Below, piece after piece: positions 24,367 to 29,720 of a stretch of 32,436 nt of DNA. Within the stretch, counting starts at the first letter, position 1. Every line of letters starts with the position of its first letter. Position numbers and translations under genes: made by a program. The DNA comes from Acidobacteriaceae bacterium (GTDB lineage Bacteria > Acidobacteriota > Terriglobia > Bryobacterales > Bryobacteraceae), in contig JAFAYL010000053.1 in the NCBI GenBank assembly GCA_019240405.1, positions 1 through 32,436 on the forward strand. Direction: 5' to 3'. The notes under the pieces were generated by a model that worked only from the letters and a program-made list of their open reading frames with translations, had not been told where the DNA came from and made no database searches.

Positions 24367-25787
24367 TGCGGCGGCTGGTTTCGATCGGATTACTGATTTG
24401 TGTTGTTGTTTTCTCGAGCGCAGCGGAAACGATATTGATTCGGAACGCGACGGTGTTGACGATTACGAAGGGCACGGTGGAAAACGGGAGCGTTCTGGTT
24501 CAGGACGGCAAGATTGCGGCGGTTGGCACGAACGTGAGCGCTCCGGCTGGAGCGATGGTTGTCGATGGCACCGGCAAATACCTGATGCCGGGAATCATCG
24601 ATTGCCATTCGCACACGGCGGTTGAGGGGAGCGTGAACGAGGGCAGCGTTTCGGACTCCTCGATGGTGAATATTGCCGACGTACTGAATCCGGAGGATAT
24701 CAATATCTATCGCGGGCTTTCAGGCGGGTTGACCGTTTCGAACGTGCTGCACGGGAGCGCGAACGCGATCGGCGGGCAGACGATCGTGATCAAACTGCGC
24801 TGGGGAAAAGATGCGAAGGGGTTGATTTTTGAAGGAGCGAAGCCGGGAATCAAGTTTGCGCTTGGTGAGAATCCGAAACGGCAAGGGTATCCGGGTGAGC
24901 TCTTCAGCGCTGGACCCGCACGGGAGCGGCGCTACCCGGGAACGCGCATGGGCGTGGAAGAAGTGATTCGAGACAGCTTTACAGAAGCGAAGAATTATCA
25001 GGCGGATTGGAAAGAGTACAACGAGCGCGTGGGGCGAGGCGAGCATCCGATTCCACCCGAAAAAGATTTGCGATTAGAGCCGCTGGTAGAGGTGCTCGAA
25101 GGCAAGCGGTACGTGCATGCGCATTGCTATCGATCGGATGAAATTTTGATGCTGATACGGATCGCGGACGAGATGGGTTTTAAGATTCGGACCTTTCAAC
25201 ATGTGCTCGAGGGATACAGAGTGGCGAAGGAGATTGCTGAGCACGGAGCGGGCGCGTCGACGTTTAGCGATTGGTGGGCGTACAAGATTGAGGCGTACGA
25301 TGCGACGCCCTATAACGCTGCGATGATGGCGCGGGCGGGGGTAGTGGTATCGCTAAATTCGGATTCGGATGAGCTGCAGCGGCACTTGAATCTGGAGTGC
25401 TCGAAAGTGATGCGTTACGGCGGGTTGAATGAAACCGAAGCGCTTTCAATGGTGACGATCAATCCGGCGAAGCAGTTGGGTATCGACGACAAAGTGGGGT
25501 CGATCGAGGTGGGTAAGTCGGGCGACTTGGTGCTGTTCGATCAGCATCCGCTGTCGAATTACTCGAAGGTGTTGAAGGTGTGGATCGACGGGCAGGAGTA
25601 TTTCGACCGGGACAAAGATCTTGCAAACCGGAAGGAATTCGAACAGAAGAAGAAGACGCTGATGGACAAGGAGAAGGCGGCGGAGAAGAAGCCGGAAGAG
25701 GGGAAGGGTGAGCCCAAAAAAGGAGCGGGGCCGGGCGGAAAGGCTGGGAAGAAGAAGGAAGCTGCCAAGCCGGAGGAGGTGCAGTGA
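24366..25787 (+). CDS. Exported amidohydrolase, metal site intact
   Basis: 473 residues with signal peptide (cleavage near SSA-AE, residue 20). Amidohydrolase superfamily, imidazolonepropionase-like branch. Metal ligands are complete: H81 and H83 in GIIDCHSH, H251/H253 in YVHAHC, H279 in TFQHV, D333 in SLNSDSD; K163 in GIKFALGENP is a candidate bridging lysine. The C-terminal sandwich has VGSIEVGKSGDLVLFDQHPL. The last 50 residues are Lys/Glu/Pro/Gly-rich and probably disordered. Substrate unknown; a periplasmic peptidase- or amidase-like hydrolase is the general expectation. Middle of three overlapping genes, suggesting a joint product. Confidence 0.9.
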   Translation: MRRLVSIGLLICVVVFSSAAETILIRNATVLTITKGTVENGSVLVQDGKIAAVGTNVSAPAGAMVVDGTGKYLMPGIIDCHSHTAVEGSVNEGSVSDSSMVNIADVLNPEDINIYRGLSGGLTVSNVLHGSANAIGGQTIVIKLRWGKDAKGLIFEGAKPGIKFALGENPKRQGYPGELFSAGPARERRYPGTRMGVEEVIRDSFTEAKNYQADWKEYNERVGRGEHPIPPEKDLRLEPLVEVLEGKRYVHAHCYRSDEILMLIRIADEMGFKIRTFQHVLEGYRVAKEIAEHGAGASTFSDWWAYKIEAYDATPYNAAMMARAGVVVSLNSDSDELQRHLNLECSKVMRYGGLNETEALSMVTINPAKQLGIDDKVGSIEVGKSGDLVLFDQHPLSNYSKVLKVWIDGQEYFDRDKDLANRKEFEQKKKTLMDKEKAAEKKPEEGKGEPKKGAGPGGKAGKKKEAAKPEEVQ

Positions 25788-27109
25788 TGTGGCCGGGAAT
25801 TTTTCGTTTGATCGTTGCTGCGTGCCTGCTCCCGATGGGGTTGTTTGGGGCGGCGGAGAATTCGGTGTTGATTACGAACGTGACGATTCACCCGGTAACT
25901 GCGCCTGAAATCCAGAACGGATCGGTGCTGGTCATCGACGGGAAAATCGCGGAACTCGGAACAAGTATCGCGGCGCGGGAGGGCGCGCGCACGGTTGATG
26001 GACGCGGGTTGCACTTGTATCCGGGATTGATCAATGCGGCGACGAACGTCGGGTTATCGGAGATATCGTCACTGCGCGATACGGTGGATCTGGATGAGAT
26101 CGGGCCGTTCAATCCTGAGTTGCGAGCGCAGATTGCTTACAATCCATCGAGCGAGCATATCGCTGTGACGCGGGCGTCTGGGATCACGGCGGTGATCAGT
26201 CTTCCGGGGAGCGGAGCGAGCGGCTTCGGCCTGGCGAGTCAGGGGCCGGGGACGATTATCACGGGGCAAGGCGCGCTGATGCATCTCGAAGGGTGGACGT
26301 GGGAAGAAGCGGCGGTGAAACCGAGCGCGGTTGTCGACATGATGTTTCCGCAGATCCAGACGGTGCCACGGCAGATTGCGAGTTTTTTGGGCACGGAACC
26401 GCGCGGGTACACGGAGCTGGAGAAGGAGTATAAGCAGAGGCTCGAGCAGTTGAGCGATTTTGTCGAGCGCGCGCGGCGGTATGAGAAGGCAAAGGCGGCG
26501 GGCGGGCCGGAGTTTCGGGCGGATGCAAAGCTGGAGGCGATGATCCCGGTGATTGACGGGAAGACGCCTCTATTCGTGCGCGCAGGGAAGGAGCGGGCGA
26601 TTAAAGACGCGGTGGCGTTTGCGGATAAGCAGAAGGTGAAGATCATCATTGCCGATCCGCGTGAGATCGGGAGCACGGGGCCGCTGCTGAAGTCGCACAA
26701 CATTCCAGTGGTGCTGGGCAAAACGTTTCAGTTGCCGCTGCGCGATGATGATCCGTACGATGCGCCGTACACGCTGCCGAATGATTTCTTCAAGGCGGGA
26801 GTGAAGATCTGCTTCGGGACATTCGATGTAGAGTTTGCGCGGAATGTGCCGTTCGAGGCGGCGCAAGCGGCGGCATTCGGGCTGCCGCGAGACGAAGCGC
26901 TGAAGGGATTGACGATTAACAGCGCGCAGATTTTAGGCGTGGGGGATCAGTTGGGATCGATCGAGAGGGGCAAGGTAGCGGATCTGATTCTGACGGACGG
27001 CGATCCGCTCGAGGCGAAGACAAATATCAAGCAGATGTTTATTGCGGGGCGGGAAGTGAGTTTGGAATCGAGGCACACGCGGGAGTGGGAGAAGTGGGAG
27101 AAGAGGTGA
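25787..27109 (+). CDS. Exported amidohydrolase-like protein lacking the HxH motif
   Basis: 440 residues from the ATG that shares a base with the previous stop (TGATG), preceded by a ggaggagg site; an overlapping GTG at 25784 is an alternative. Signal peptide to about residue 23 (FGA-AE). The amidohydrolase frame is clear at both ends (NVTIHPVTAPEIQNGSVLVI; LGSIERGKVADLILTDGDPL), but the HxH site reads NAATN (83-87), so catalysis in the usual way is unlikely. A Lys/Glu-rich coiled region sits at about 205-235. The final 33 codons are copied downstream at about 28138-28235 and in decayed form near 28977-29141. Confidence 0.87.
   Translation: MWPGIFRLIVAACLLPMGLFGAAENSVLITNVTIHPVTAPEIQNGSVLVIDGKIAELGTSIAAREGARTVDGRGLHLYPGLINAATNVGLSEISSLRDTVDLDEIGPFNPELRAQIAYNPSSEHIAVTRASGITAVISLPGSGASGFGLASQGPGTIITGQGALMHLEGWTWEEAAVKPSAVVDMMFPQIQTVPRQIASFLGTEPRGYTELEKEYKQRLEQLSDFVERARRYEKAKAAGGPEFRADAKLEAMIPVIDGKTPLFVRAGKERAIKDAVAFADKQKVKIIIADPREIGSTGPLLKSHNIPVVLGKTFQLPLRDDDPYDAPYTLPNDFFKAGVKICFGTFDVEFARNVPFEAAQAAAFGLPRDEALKGLTINSAQILGVGDQLGSIERGKVADLILTDGDPLEAKTNIKQMFIAGREVSLESRHTREWEKWEKR
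26932..27109 (+). repeat. Tail repeat copy A (3' end of third amidohydrolase gene)
   Basis: The in-gene copy of a direct repeat found again twice within 2 kb. The final 78 bases align without gaps to 28158-28235 with five differences, and the full stretch aligns with gaps to 28977-29141. Unlike copy B, it has no hairpin after the stop codon. Confidence 0.85.
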
Positions 27110-27116
27110 TGCCATA

Positions 27117-27290
27117 TCAGACGATCTCACCGCCCGAAAGGATGTTATTGGCGATCTTCAGGTGGGTGCGACTCGGTATCGCCAACAGCAGATAGTAGAG
27201 ATGACCGCCTTCCGTGTCTCGAATAAGCGCTGCTTTCGATACGTGGCGAACGACGGCGTTGAGTCGCTTGCGATGGCAATCCAGGCAGAA
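27117..27290 (-). pseudogene. Possible remnant of a three-Cys-motif partner (TcmP)-like protein C-terminus
   Basis: A 57-codon open stretch on the minus strand, without a start, ends in TGA seven bases from the amidohydrolase stop. It reads RLNAVVRHVSKAALI..., then GGHLYYLLLAIPSRTHLKIA and NNILSGGEIV. The YYLLLA-x(n)-KIANNIL pattern recalls the end of TcmP proteins, judged from memory only. A stop codon cuts it upstream. It could be the decayed end of an inserted gene or chance. Confidence 0.35.
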
Positions 27291-27374
27291 TCATCCCGTT
27301 AACAAACCCACACAATAGAGATGGTTGAAATGCGAGCGGGAGAGCCAGCATTTGCCAGAGGCGACAATTGCGGC

Positions 27375-27408
27375 GCTTTACGTCTCCCTAGGCTTTACGT
27401 CTCCCTAG
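27375..27408. repeat. Perfect 17-bp tandem duplication at the 3' end of the beta-barrel gene
   Basis: GCTTTACGTCTCCCTAG occurs twice head to tail (27375-27391 and 27392-27408). The second copy contains the TAG stop of the minus-strand outer-membrane gene; the first copy duplicates it. Confidence 0.9.
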
Positions 27409-28016
27409 AAAGACAAGCCGACGAGCAGTTCCAATTGACTCTGTTTGGTCCGAGGGTCCCAAGGAAGGTCGACATGATCTGCCGCCCAACGCGTATACCG
27501 CAATTGTGGTGCGACCCTCAGTTTCCAGAAGTGTGCCTCAATACCTGCTCCTGAAGTTATGCCGTATGTGGATGGCGAACTACCGTTGAGGTTTCCGGAG
27601 ACACGAAACGAGGGACCAAGTTCCAGCAGAGGCCGTATTGGCACGCCAGATTCCCTAAATTTATATTGCGCGAGCACCGGCACCTCCCATGTGATTACAG
27701 TCGCCGGTGATACGCTACCCAGTGTTCCATCCGGCAGCACTACGGCGAAGGTGTAATGCATGGGCCGATAGAGCGCATCAACCTCAATAGAGAAGGTCGC
27801 CGGTAATGTGACGGCAAACGTCGGCCCCACTATGTAGTCCTTGGCTGTTGGATAAGTACGGATATCTTCAACTGTTTGATCAACAAAATCGCTGGTCAGC
27901 GATCCTCCCGCAACAACCCCAAAGGAAAATCGCTGTCCAAAAGCTGATGCTGCGCAGAACGCGCTGAGGCCAAAAAGCGCCACAATTCTAGATGATCTAG
28001 GTCTTTCAATGTTCAC
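27405..28016 (-). CDS. Outer-membrane beta-barrel protein (OmpA/PorT-like barrel)
   Basis: 203 residues from a GTG at 28016 that has AGGGG seven bases upstream and starts directly before a signal peptide (IVALFGLSAFCAASAFGQ). An ATG at 28076 would add 20 polar residues. After cleavage the protein shows alternating hydrophobic/polar strands (FSFGVVAGGSLTSDF, TFAVTLPATFSIEVDALYRP, APQLRYTRWA) and ends in LLVGLSF, the terminal Phe typical of BAM-assembled barrels. About eight strands are likely. Function unknown. It lies between two copies of the amidohydrolase tail, so it is probably part of an inserted segment. Confidence 0.8.
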   Translation of the reverse strand: MNIERPRSSRIVALFGLSAFCAASAFGQRFSFGVVAGGSLTSDFVDQTVEDIRTYPTAKDYIVGPTFAVTLPATFSIEVDALYRPMHYTFAVVLPDGTLGSVSPATVITWEVPVLAQYKFRESGVPIRPLLELGPSFRVSGNLNGSSPSTYGITSGAGIEAHFWKLRVAPQLRYTRWAADHVDLPWDPRTKQSQLELLVGLSF

Positions 28017-28124
28017 GCACGCACCCCTGTTCAATGGTGTCTTTTTCGTCTTCCTTTGCGACGTTATTAGATTCATGCTTCTTGGCGTCCATTAGAAGTC
28101 ATTATTGCGCTAATTGCGGAATAT

Positions 28125-28235
28125 GACGCGAACTGCCGAAGCAAAAACGAACATCATCAGATGTTTATTGCGGGGCGGGAGGTGAGCTTGGAATCGAGGC
28201 ACACGAGAGAGTGGGAGAAATGGGAGAAGAGGTGA
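28125..28235 (+). repeat. Tail repeat copy B (displaced amidohydrolase 3' end)
   Basis: Direct copy of the end of the third amidohydrolase gene. From 28138 it encodes EAKTNI, then after a one-base loss QMFIAGREVSLESRHTREWE and KWEKR plus stop, the same protein end as copy A. There are ten base differences at nine codons (gag/gaa, gcg/gca, aag/aaa, aca/acg, aat/aac, gaa/gag, agt/agc, cgg/aga, aag/aaa), all silent. Further upstream the match fades with gaps. No start, so it is a gene fragment. Confidence 0.88.
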
Positions 28236-28277: not shown

Positions 28278-28616
28278 TTAAGCGTTTCGAATGACTAGAT
28301 GATTGCGATCCGAGTGTTCTAGTTCGGCGATTCGGATAGCATTACGTCGAAGCAGTTCTTCGACCCTGGATGTCTTGTAATCACATCGTTCAATGCGTAT
28401 TACCTTGGGCGGCGATCCTCGTTCCTTAAGGATCCTCAGAAAATCGGCGTCTGCAGTGACGATCGAGAACCCGTTTAGTCGCGCATAGGTCCAAACGATC
28501 TCGTCCGAGGTGAATTTCGCCAGACCTGTCGAAAAGACATGGGCTGATTCTGGAAAGAGGTCTTTGAAGCGCGAGGGGAGCTTAGGGGAGAGATTCGCGT
28601 CGAACAGGAGTTTCAA
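28278..28616 (-). CDS. DUF5615 PIN-like protein, putative toxin
   Basis: 112 residues. MKLLFDANLSPKLPSRFKDL and the TADADF motif are typical of DUF5615, a PIN-like (Mut7-C-related) fold; acidic residues D6, D56 and D58 are candidates for metal binding. Such genes usually follow a DUF433 gene, as here (ATGA overlap), and the pair is widely regarded as a type II toxin-antitoxin module resembling VapBC. RNase activity is inferred, not shown. Confidence 0.85.
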   Translation of the reverse strand: MKLLFDANLSPKLPSRFKDLFPESAHVFSTGLAKFTSDEIVWTYARLNGFSIVTADADFLRILKERGSPPKVIRIERCDYKTSRVEELLRRNAIRIAELEHSDRNHLVIRNA

Positions 28617-28855
28617 GTAGTGGCGCGTTCGCGGCCGAACTGAGAGGCATAGGCATACACGGCGGGGAAGTCCGCTTTTTCAAGGTAGGGATAATCGTTC
28701 AGGATTTCGTCTTCTGTCATGCCGGACGCGAGCATATCGAGGATGTCCCATACGGTAATGCGTAAGCCTCGAATGCAGGGTTGGCCAGAACGCTGGCCCG
28801 GTATGATGGTAACCCTGGAGAGGTCCGGAGTTGTGCTCGTGTCCACTGAAATCAT
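28613..28855 (-). CDS. DUF433 protein, putative antitoxin
   Basis: 80 residues. The DUF433 core is clear: VTIIPGQRSGQPCIRGLRIT, VWDILDMLASGMTEDEILND, YPYLEKADFPAVYAYA, a winged-helix-like DNA-binding domain. It ends in ATGA overlap with the DUF5615 gene. A small AGCG-TTCG-CGCT hairpin lies in the upstream 30 bases and could be an operator. Role as antitoxin and autorepressor is inferred from the family. Confidence 0.86.
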   Translation of the reverse strand: MISVDTSTTPDLSRVTIIPGQRSGQPCIRGLRITVWDILDMLASGMTEDEILNDYPYLEKADFPAVYAYASQFGRERATT

Positions 28856-28976: not shown

Positions 28977-29141
28977 AGAGGCAGAGTTTCTAGGCGTGGG
29001 GGATCAGTTGAGTCGACCGAGATGAGCAAGGTAGCGGATTTGATTACGGGCGACGGTCCGCTTGAGTAAGACGAAAATCGAGCAGATGTTTGTTGCTGGG
29101 GGGAAGTGAGTTTGGAGTCGCGCGGAGTGGGGGAAGAGGTG
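28977..29141 (+). repeat. Tail repeat copy C, decayed
   Basis: Aligns with 26932-27107 over its length: TAGGCGTGGGGGATCAGTTG, GCAAGGTAGCGGAT, GAGCAGATGTTTGTTGC and GGAAGTGAGTTTGGA are shared, with many substitutions and several deletions (including two near the end). All frames are broken, so it is older or less constrained than copy B. It ends ten bases before the second DUF5615 gene. Confidence 0.75.
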
Positions 29142-29150
29142 CGGGGACGC

Positions 29151-29480
29151 TTAAGACGGATCGGCCATTAGAACCTCGGTACAAGTGCCTGGTTCTGCAC
29201 CGTTGACTGCAGCAGCTATGGACTCCAAATGAAGGCGCACACCGGGCCACCGCGATTTTCCAAGTATGACAACCGCTATGGCCCTCCCCCTCAAATTCTG
29301 TTGATAGCGCATGTTCTTGTCCGTTGTGAGAAGGACTCTGTACCCGGCCTGTTCGGCGCGTGCGATCAATTCGCCATTGTTGAGTTGATGCCAACCGATT
29401 TGTCGGGCACGAGTGATTTCGTGTCCGGTCAGGCAATCCGCGATCTTCTTTGGGACGCCGTTGTCAAACAGAATCTTCAT
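29151..29480 (-). CDS. DUF5615 PIN-like protein, second putative toxin
   Basis: 109 residues; MKILFDNGVPKKIADCLTGH and LLTTDKNMRYQQN mark a DUF5615 subgroup distinct from the neighbour at 28278 (little identity beyond the fold motifs). D6 and D54 are likely site residues. Preceded by its DUF433 partner with a 9-base gap. Putative RNase toxin of a type II module by family association. Confidence 0.83.
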   Translation of the reverse strand: MKILFDNGVPKKIADCLTGHEITRARQIGWHQLNNGELIARAEQAGYRVLLTTDKNMRYQQNLRGRAIAVVILGKSRWPGVRLHLESIAAAVNGAEPGTCTEVLMADPS

Positions 29481-29489
29481 CCCGGCATT

Positions 29490-29720
29490 TCAGCCGTAAG
29501 AGGGTTCCTTCTCAAGGCTCTGGTTTACGAAGTGCAATACGGCTCGAACTTCGTCTGCAGTGACGTCGAACACTTGCGTGATTTCGTCGATGGACAGGCC
29601 CGCCTCGAGATTTTCGATGATGGTTTGCACAGGCATGCGCGTACCGCGTAGGACCCACGCTCCGCTCACCTTACCGGGAACGCTTTCGACCGCAGGACAC
29701 TGCGACCAATCGAGTGGCAT
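29490..29720 (-). CDS. DUF433 protein, second putative antitoxin
   Basis: 76 residues: GKVSGAWVLRGTRMPVQTII, ENLEAGLSIDEITQVFDV, TADEVRAVLHFVNQSL, the usual DUF433 layout. On the minus strand the region just upstream contains an AT-rich stretch with TATGAT, a possible -10 box, without a clear -35. Pairs with the DUF5615 gene downstream; sequence differs strongly from the first DUF433, so this is an independent acquisition and not a recent duplication. Confidence 0.83.
   Translation of the reverse strand: MPLDWSQCPAVESVPGKVSGAWVLRGTRMPVQTIIENLEAGLSIDEITQVFDVTADEVRAVLHFVNQSLEKEPSYG

Follow-up and report, generated by a model that had tools for sequence, protein, structure and literature searches.

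Stacked copies of a gene's 3' end behind an acidobacterial amidohydrolase gene suggest successive additions of DNA by recombination with diverged alleles

Here, we present an analysis of the DNA behind an amidohydrolase gene in an acidobacterial genome of 4.45 Mb in 63 contigs. The window, i.e., the whole stretch of DNA analysed, is an entire contig of 32,436 bases. It holds three amidohydrolase genes, of which the third is followed by three blocks of cargo genes separated by two extra copies of its own 3' end, tails B and C (Table 1); the two others are more distant and lie in tandem. Tails B and C have the same orientation as the third gene, i.e., the insert lies between direct repeats of its target. 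The initial annotation of the locus had described tails A and B and overlooked tail C.

Table 1. Features of the tail stack (positions in the window)
Feature	Position	Strand	Basis or remark
Third amidohydrolase gene, intact; the stack is anchored at its 3' end	25784..27109	+	Pfam Amidohydro_1; orthologs in the genus
Tail A, present end of the amidohydrolase gene	27011..27109	+	Repeat search
Block 1 cargo, outer-membrane beta-barrel-like gene	27405..28076	-	Weak Pfam match, below the curated cut-off
Tail B	28128..28235	+	From 28138 on, all differences silent; one base lost; start fuzzy
Block 2 cargo, DUF5615 (PIN-like) gene	28278..28616	-	Pfam PF18480
Block 2 cargo, DUF433 gene	28613..28855	-	Pfam PF04255
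Tail C, copy of gene positions 1145-1314, older and decayed	28985..29139	+	Repeat and BLAST searches
Block 3, DUF5615 gene, unmatched in BLASTP by its block 2 counterpart	29151..29480	-	Pfam
Block 3, DUF433 gene, open frame	29490..29720	-	Domain match

A second copy of the gene's final 33 codons (27011-27109) lies at 28138-28235 and, as the initial annotation had stated, the two copies differ by 10 substitutions in nine codons, all of them synonymous, and by the loss of one base in tail B, which strikes a single codon (27029-27031). The similarity of tail B may extend back to 28128; this part contains three codons with replacements and more gaps, and the statement that all differences are silent is restricted to 28138-28235. 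If copy A mutates at random, a silent fraction of ~0.22 is expected, and 10 silent differences out of 10 have a p of 2.7e-7; if silent changes alone are tolerated in A while B is free to drift, a fraction of 0.36 is expected, with a p of 3.7e-5. Using NG86, we obtained a dN of 0 and a dS of ~1.1 over 31 codons, which are rough values for a very short stretch. Because the differences are exclusively silent even though tail B is a frameshifted remnant, and because copies identical at birth would not give this pattern, the comparison indicates that A and B diverged under selection, as working alleles, before they met. The proposal that one of the copies came from a diverged but functional allele agrees with this.

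When a target is copied at insertion, the two copies are expected to be identical at birth, an expectation that the silent-only divergence of A and B contradicts. We therefore regard as very improbable that the repeats arose by a simple target duplication, i.e., as identical copies that drifted apart afterward, since even with one copy constrained a frameshifted tail should rarely end up with 10 silent and no replacement differences (the second p value above). In favor of such an event, long target duplications are described, in the accessible part of PMC1643837, for restriction-modification genes of Helicobacter pylori.

Tail C matches 26928-27097 with 79% identity over 170 columns. Relative to the gene, it has indels in 11 codons and, in 150 comparable bases, six silent and 12 replacement differences. 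Thus, the more decayed of the two extra tails is the one farther from the gene. The two extra tails also start at different points, i.e., at gene positions ~1217 (B) and 1145 (C) of 1326, starts that later trimming may have shifted. At the 10 sites at which A and B differ, tail C agrees with A at seven, with B at one, and with neither at two.

The genes between and behind the tails are of several kinds. Homologs of the beta-barrel-like gene were found in 50 of the 80 genomes searched, its own included. The TcmP-like remnant that had been reported in block 1 consists of two 50-aa pieces and has no Pfam match. Behind tails B and C, the DUF5615 and DUF433 genes all have open reading frames. Because BLASTP finds no match between the DUF5615 protein of block 2 and that of block 3, and because the two blocks have in common only nucleotide matches of 15-24 nt, a duplication of tail and module as one unit is ruled out. 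Based on a weak PIN-like match and on their pairing, the DUF5615/DUF433 pairs are putative toxin-antitoxin (TA) modules; a PADLOC search of four window proteins, three of them from these pairs, returned no match, and the word DUF5615 is absent from the open-licence literature searched. In line with the initial annotation, which saw no integrase in the insert, a scan of cargo ORFs, which covered part of the small ones, recognised none in the window, in contigs 18 and 34 of this genome, or in the cargo of the isolate KBS 96. With respect to restriction-modification and addiction modules, the cargo across loci is mixed, with DUF5615/DUF433 pairs and an MmeI-like protein (KBS 96) alongside the barrel, a BlaI/BlaR1 pair, and lipocalin-like and MacB-like proteins. 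We also considered whether the cargo is tied to DUF5615 only and rejected this; module-flanking repeats were seen at three of 25 DUF5615 loci (L095, which is the window, L100, and L138), where the 25 include two loci from the window itself and the repeats at L100 and L138 involve VapB-like and HicB-like genes themselves. At L100 (G003 contig 582; 11-110, 685-908, 1408-1508, and 3099-3324), a DUF433-like gene end and a VapB-like antitoxin gene each occur twice around TA-like genes. At L138 (G003 contig 87; 818-2592), the end of a HicB-like antitoxin gene occurs twice (96%) around a DUF5615/DUF433-like pair, with one copy fused to a P-loop-like start.

Among the named relatives, metagenome assemblies of acidobacteria prevail; KBS 96 is an isolate. 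The end of the amidohydrolase gene is present in 12 of 16 other genomes of the genus, and a second high-identity copy in 0 of these 12, in a search that misses copies with as much decay as tail C, the window's own included. Consistently, BLAST of the gene against the fetched congeneric loci gave one match per locus. An isolated tail in G016 is ordinary, being the gene's end at a contig edge. Because tails A and B have in common a Trp and a Glu that occur in 0 of 12 congeneric gene ends, and tail C retains the Trp codon, the tails would stem from this lineage or from a near, unsampled one. The initial annotation had proposed to align both tails with orthologs. At the 10 sites in 11 genomes (110 votes), the orthologs agree with A 63 times and with B 29 times, and 10 of the 11 genomes favor A. 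Together with the agreement of tail C with A, this alignment marks tail B, not A, as the odd copy and says nothing on which copy arrived. The proposed search for strains with an empty site yielded none: downstream stretches of 1.7 to 7.6 kb from 14 relatives match nothing downstream here (0 of 14), and downstream gene order is not conserved among them. In one of these relatives (G013), the first ORF behind the amidohydrolase gene encodes a DUF433 protein and, in another (G005), a ribbon-helix-helix/PIN pair follows the gene; these observations indicate that TA-like genes lie behind this gene independently.

These comparisons bear on the possibility that the tails are old tandem paralogs, i.e., that a duplication of the entire gene was followed by a long time in which the copies remained functional, after which all but their ends were lost as unrelated genes moved in. 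Such a history would likewise yield silent-only differences, and the window does contain two more distant amidohydrolase genes in tandem. However, remnants of a full tandem copy between the tails, named at the outset as the case that would overturn the insertion, were sought and not seen; every extra copy, both here and in the second stack described below, is a gene end; and the congeneric loci hold a single copy, within the limits of the search given above. We consider this history unlikely.

The same layout occurs at other genes. We surveyed stretches of this genome (355,803, 755,803, and 1,124,256 bases, the last being 1.12 Mb out of 4.45 Mb) and, in KBS 96 (G024), 800,000 bases (0.8 of 6.7 Mb) for repeat pairs of 50-900 nt with ≥68% identity, within 8 kb of each other, and with E up to 1e-8. 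In total, 38 pairs passed, all direct and none inverted, many of them paralogs or repeats of other kinds; 22 of these pairs (≥50 nt, within 8 kb) lie in the 1,124,256 bases of this genome, several of them paralogs or internal repeats, so that repeats of this kind are uncommon. Among the 38, we picked by eye eight copies of gene 3' ends with cargo between, i.e., two in the window, one each in contigs 18 and 20, two in contig 34, and two in KBS 96. The pairs set aside, also by eye, were tandem paralogs, within-gene repeats, interspersed repeats (contig 25 and KBS 96), a gene-start case in contig 15, one pair formed by two tails in contig 34, and an exact repeat of 95 nt next to a run of N. In the contig 15 case (L125 10308-13722), a gene-start counterpart, the first part of a gene for an L-PSP endoribonuclease (RidA-like) is found again 3.3 kb upstream, and long repetitive frames lie between the copies. 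In contig 25 (L111 3619-8798), a DUF433-like ORF and further short ORFs are surrounded by several direct repeats (84-96%) of the interspersed type.

Contig 34 (L214 6208-10257) contains a second stack, in which a rhodanese gene is followed by two extra tails covering 147 and 77 coding bases, lengths that later trimming may have reduced. The near tail has 14 silent and three replacement differences, and the far one seven and eight. The cargo consists of a lipocalin-like and a weakly monooxygenase-like ORF, and then a MacB-like permease. Here, ortholog votes are nearly even (gene, 53; tail 2, 61), and no empty site was found in 15 loci with 1.3 to 1.5 kb of downstream sequence. In contig 18 (L128 3463-6982), the end of an FAD-binding oxidoreductase gene and ~50 nt of its flank recur beyond a BlaI/BlaR1 pair, with three silent and one replacement differences in the coding part; behind the stop, 74 nt contain 15 differences, and there are 13 gaps. 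A truncated convergent frame also lies between the oxidoreductase tails. In contig 20 (L200 8709-10520), a BNR-repeat gene has a 58-nt copy of its end beyond a DUF5615 gene, with one silent and no replacement difference. In the isolate KBS 96 (L176 675-5509), the end of a gene with a weak SLT match recurs beyond a gene for a single MmeI-like restriction-modification protein of 1137 aa, with three silent and one replacement differences and a 54-nt gap. In G043 (L085 219-3564), which is outside this family, an SPFH gene is followed by a homolog of the window's barrel, an acetyltransferase, and then a second tail with nine silent and 10 replacement differences. Another repeat near the end of a gene in KBS 96 (521685-521823) has four silent and 17 replacement differences. 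The silent pattern is, therefore, not universal.

The KBS 96 locus is also informative about an assembly artefact, in which the contig would join alleles of co-occurring strains. In the genus, the named relatives are metagenome-derived assemblies, and the same may be true of this genome, which makes such a join conceivable; however, tail C is decayed, the window contains no N, and the same anatomy is present in an isolate scaffold with no N across the place. We regard an artefact as highly improbable.

The initial annotation had interpreted the locus as an integration at a gene's 3' end. The parts of this idea according to which new DNA is added and the older end is pushed outward stand, while that of a classical site-specific element is not supported, given the absence of a recognised integrase among the cargo ORFs scanned and the different starting points of the extra tails. 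The incoming DNA may or may not have replaced the gene's own end. Integrative elements that carry a replacement 3' end and have since lost their integrase would use 3' ends and leave a diverged tail beside the insert, as seen here. Nevertheless, the scan of cargo ORFs described above revealed no integrase at any of the loci covered, tail starts vary within each stack, which speaks against a constant crossover point unless later trimming moved them, and the target genes are unrelated, all of which makes such elements very unlikely.

In the combined counts, the near tails (n=5) have 31 silent and five replacement differences versus 13 and 20 in the far tails (n=2, of two stacks; Fisher p 6e-5). 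Without tail B, p is 0.0017; without the window and contig 34, the remaining near tails (7/2) give a p of 0.06; and if G043 and the second KBS 96 case are added to the near class (44/32), p is 0.096. Thus, the contrast between near and far tails is clear within the two stacks and, as a general law, only suggestive. In a segment control of 1,513 ORFs (878 + 635), in which matches outside other ORFs were counted, gene ends recur downstream nine times, starts upstream once, and middles once; the nine include the exact repeat beside a run of N and a 46-nt match (KBS 96 205666-206091). In G039, a control from another family, 270 ORFs gave no ends, no starts, and one middle, and 400 kb of this genome, a small control, contained two repeat pairs, with no gene-end case and one mid-gene case. 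A 50-kb stretch of E. coli was too small as a control. The 3' bias may perhaps reflect mere survival, in that additions behind a stop codon are the least harmful.

Taken together, the three tails, the silent-only differences between A and B, the outward decay, the unrelated cargo, the differing tail starts, and the same anatomy elsewhere are observed directly, and we conclude that the stack was probably formed by at least two successive additions of DNA at the 3' end of one gene, by one-sided recombination with a diverged working allele. The identity of the donor, the path of recombination, the sequence in which the additions took place, and the question of which copy is native are matters of inference. 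DNA from a near relative, bringing along other genes and a diverged working version of the gene's end, would recombine homologously inside the gene's end, and its other end would be joined without homology; alternatively, the piece could be closed into a circle and enter by a single crossover. The gene would stay whole, with the new cargo directly behind it and a shortened second tail on the far side, and the next addition would reuse the same gene end, so that the newest cargo adjoins the gene and the oldest tail is outermost. The one homologous anchor is present as the gene end common to the copies. Competence-type families (DprA and ComEC) are present as well, which says little as they also occur in the control genomes (11 and 10 of 14, respectively). 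Several findings argue against this reading, i.e., that no empty site and no donor were found; that B rather than A is the odd copy, which had not been predicted; that the two gene-end repeats in KBS 96 (521685-521823) and G043 lack the silent pattern and weaken the near-far contrast when included; that the survey cases were chosen by eye; and that typical homology-facilitated illegitimate recombination (HFIR), according to the portion of PMC3240628 available, deletes recipient DNA, while here the recipient's tail persists as a second copy.

More broadly, though here we are rather doubtful, 3' ends of genes in this family of soil acidobacteria could be general docking sites, at which integrase-free recombination via a diverged gene-end allele repeatedly adds foreign modules and leaves time-ordered stacks of dead tails that can be dated by the ratio of silent to replacement differences. 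If so, what is called a long target duplication would be recombination between alleles and not target copying. How small modules settle in chromosomes without an integrase or transposase is poorly understood, and such additions could explain why accessory modules, e.g., TA-like pairs, gather behind conserved genes. An ordered tail stack, together with a silent-site test that distinguishes an end copied at insertion from one brought by a diverged allele, would make long target duplications testable in any genome.

Among known systems, genomic islands that insert at gene 3' ends displace the old gene end and leave the gene whole. The stack is similar in both respects; it differs in having no recognised integrase and no constant crossover point. 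In E. coli conjugation, gene-end duplications of 109-950 bp in sequenced clones were interpreted by the authors as single crossovers, as far as the available portion of PMC3240628 goes. In common with HFIR and with single crossovers of circles as presented there, our model has one homologous anchor and one non-homologous joint; however, the typical HFIR products carry a deletion. An HFIR-like step with serial additions has been proposed for type VI secretion system (T6SS) modules in Vibrio cholerae (PMC5361080, in excerpt). The serial displacement of effector-immunity modules and the orphaned 3' regions of Rhs genes in that excerpt resemble the stack in the repeated 3' addition, the outward position of older parts, and the lack of integrase evidence; there, however, the old immunity genes are kept, and here nothing but a metabolic gene's dead end remains. 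Insertion with long target duplication, reported by Nobusato et al. (2000) for H. pylori and known to us from passages in PMC1643837 and PMC3154945, likewise places a module, often for restriction-modification, between long direct target repeats without a known enzyme, and the KBS 96 cargo is MmeI-like; as far as those passages go, the diverged alleles, the two-deep stack at one gene, and the mixed cargo set our case apart. More generally, in three species, the share of variable segments with flanking direct repeats is 10 to 18%, based on the part of PMC2884548 at hand. Within the open-licence literature, searched by word and judged by title and the start of the abstract, no paper matches this combination. 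We rate as new the stacking, the diverged alleles in place of identical copies, the mixed cargo, and the occurrence at several genes of one genome.
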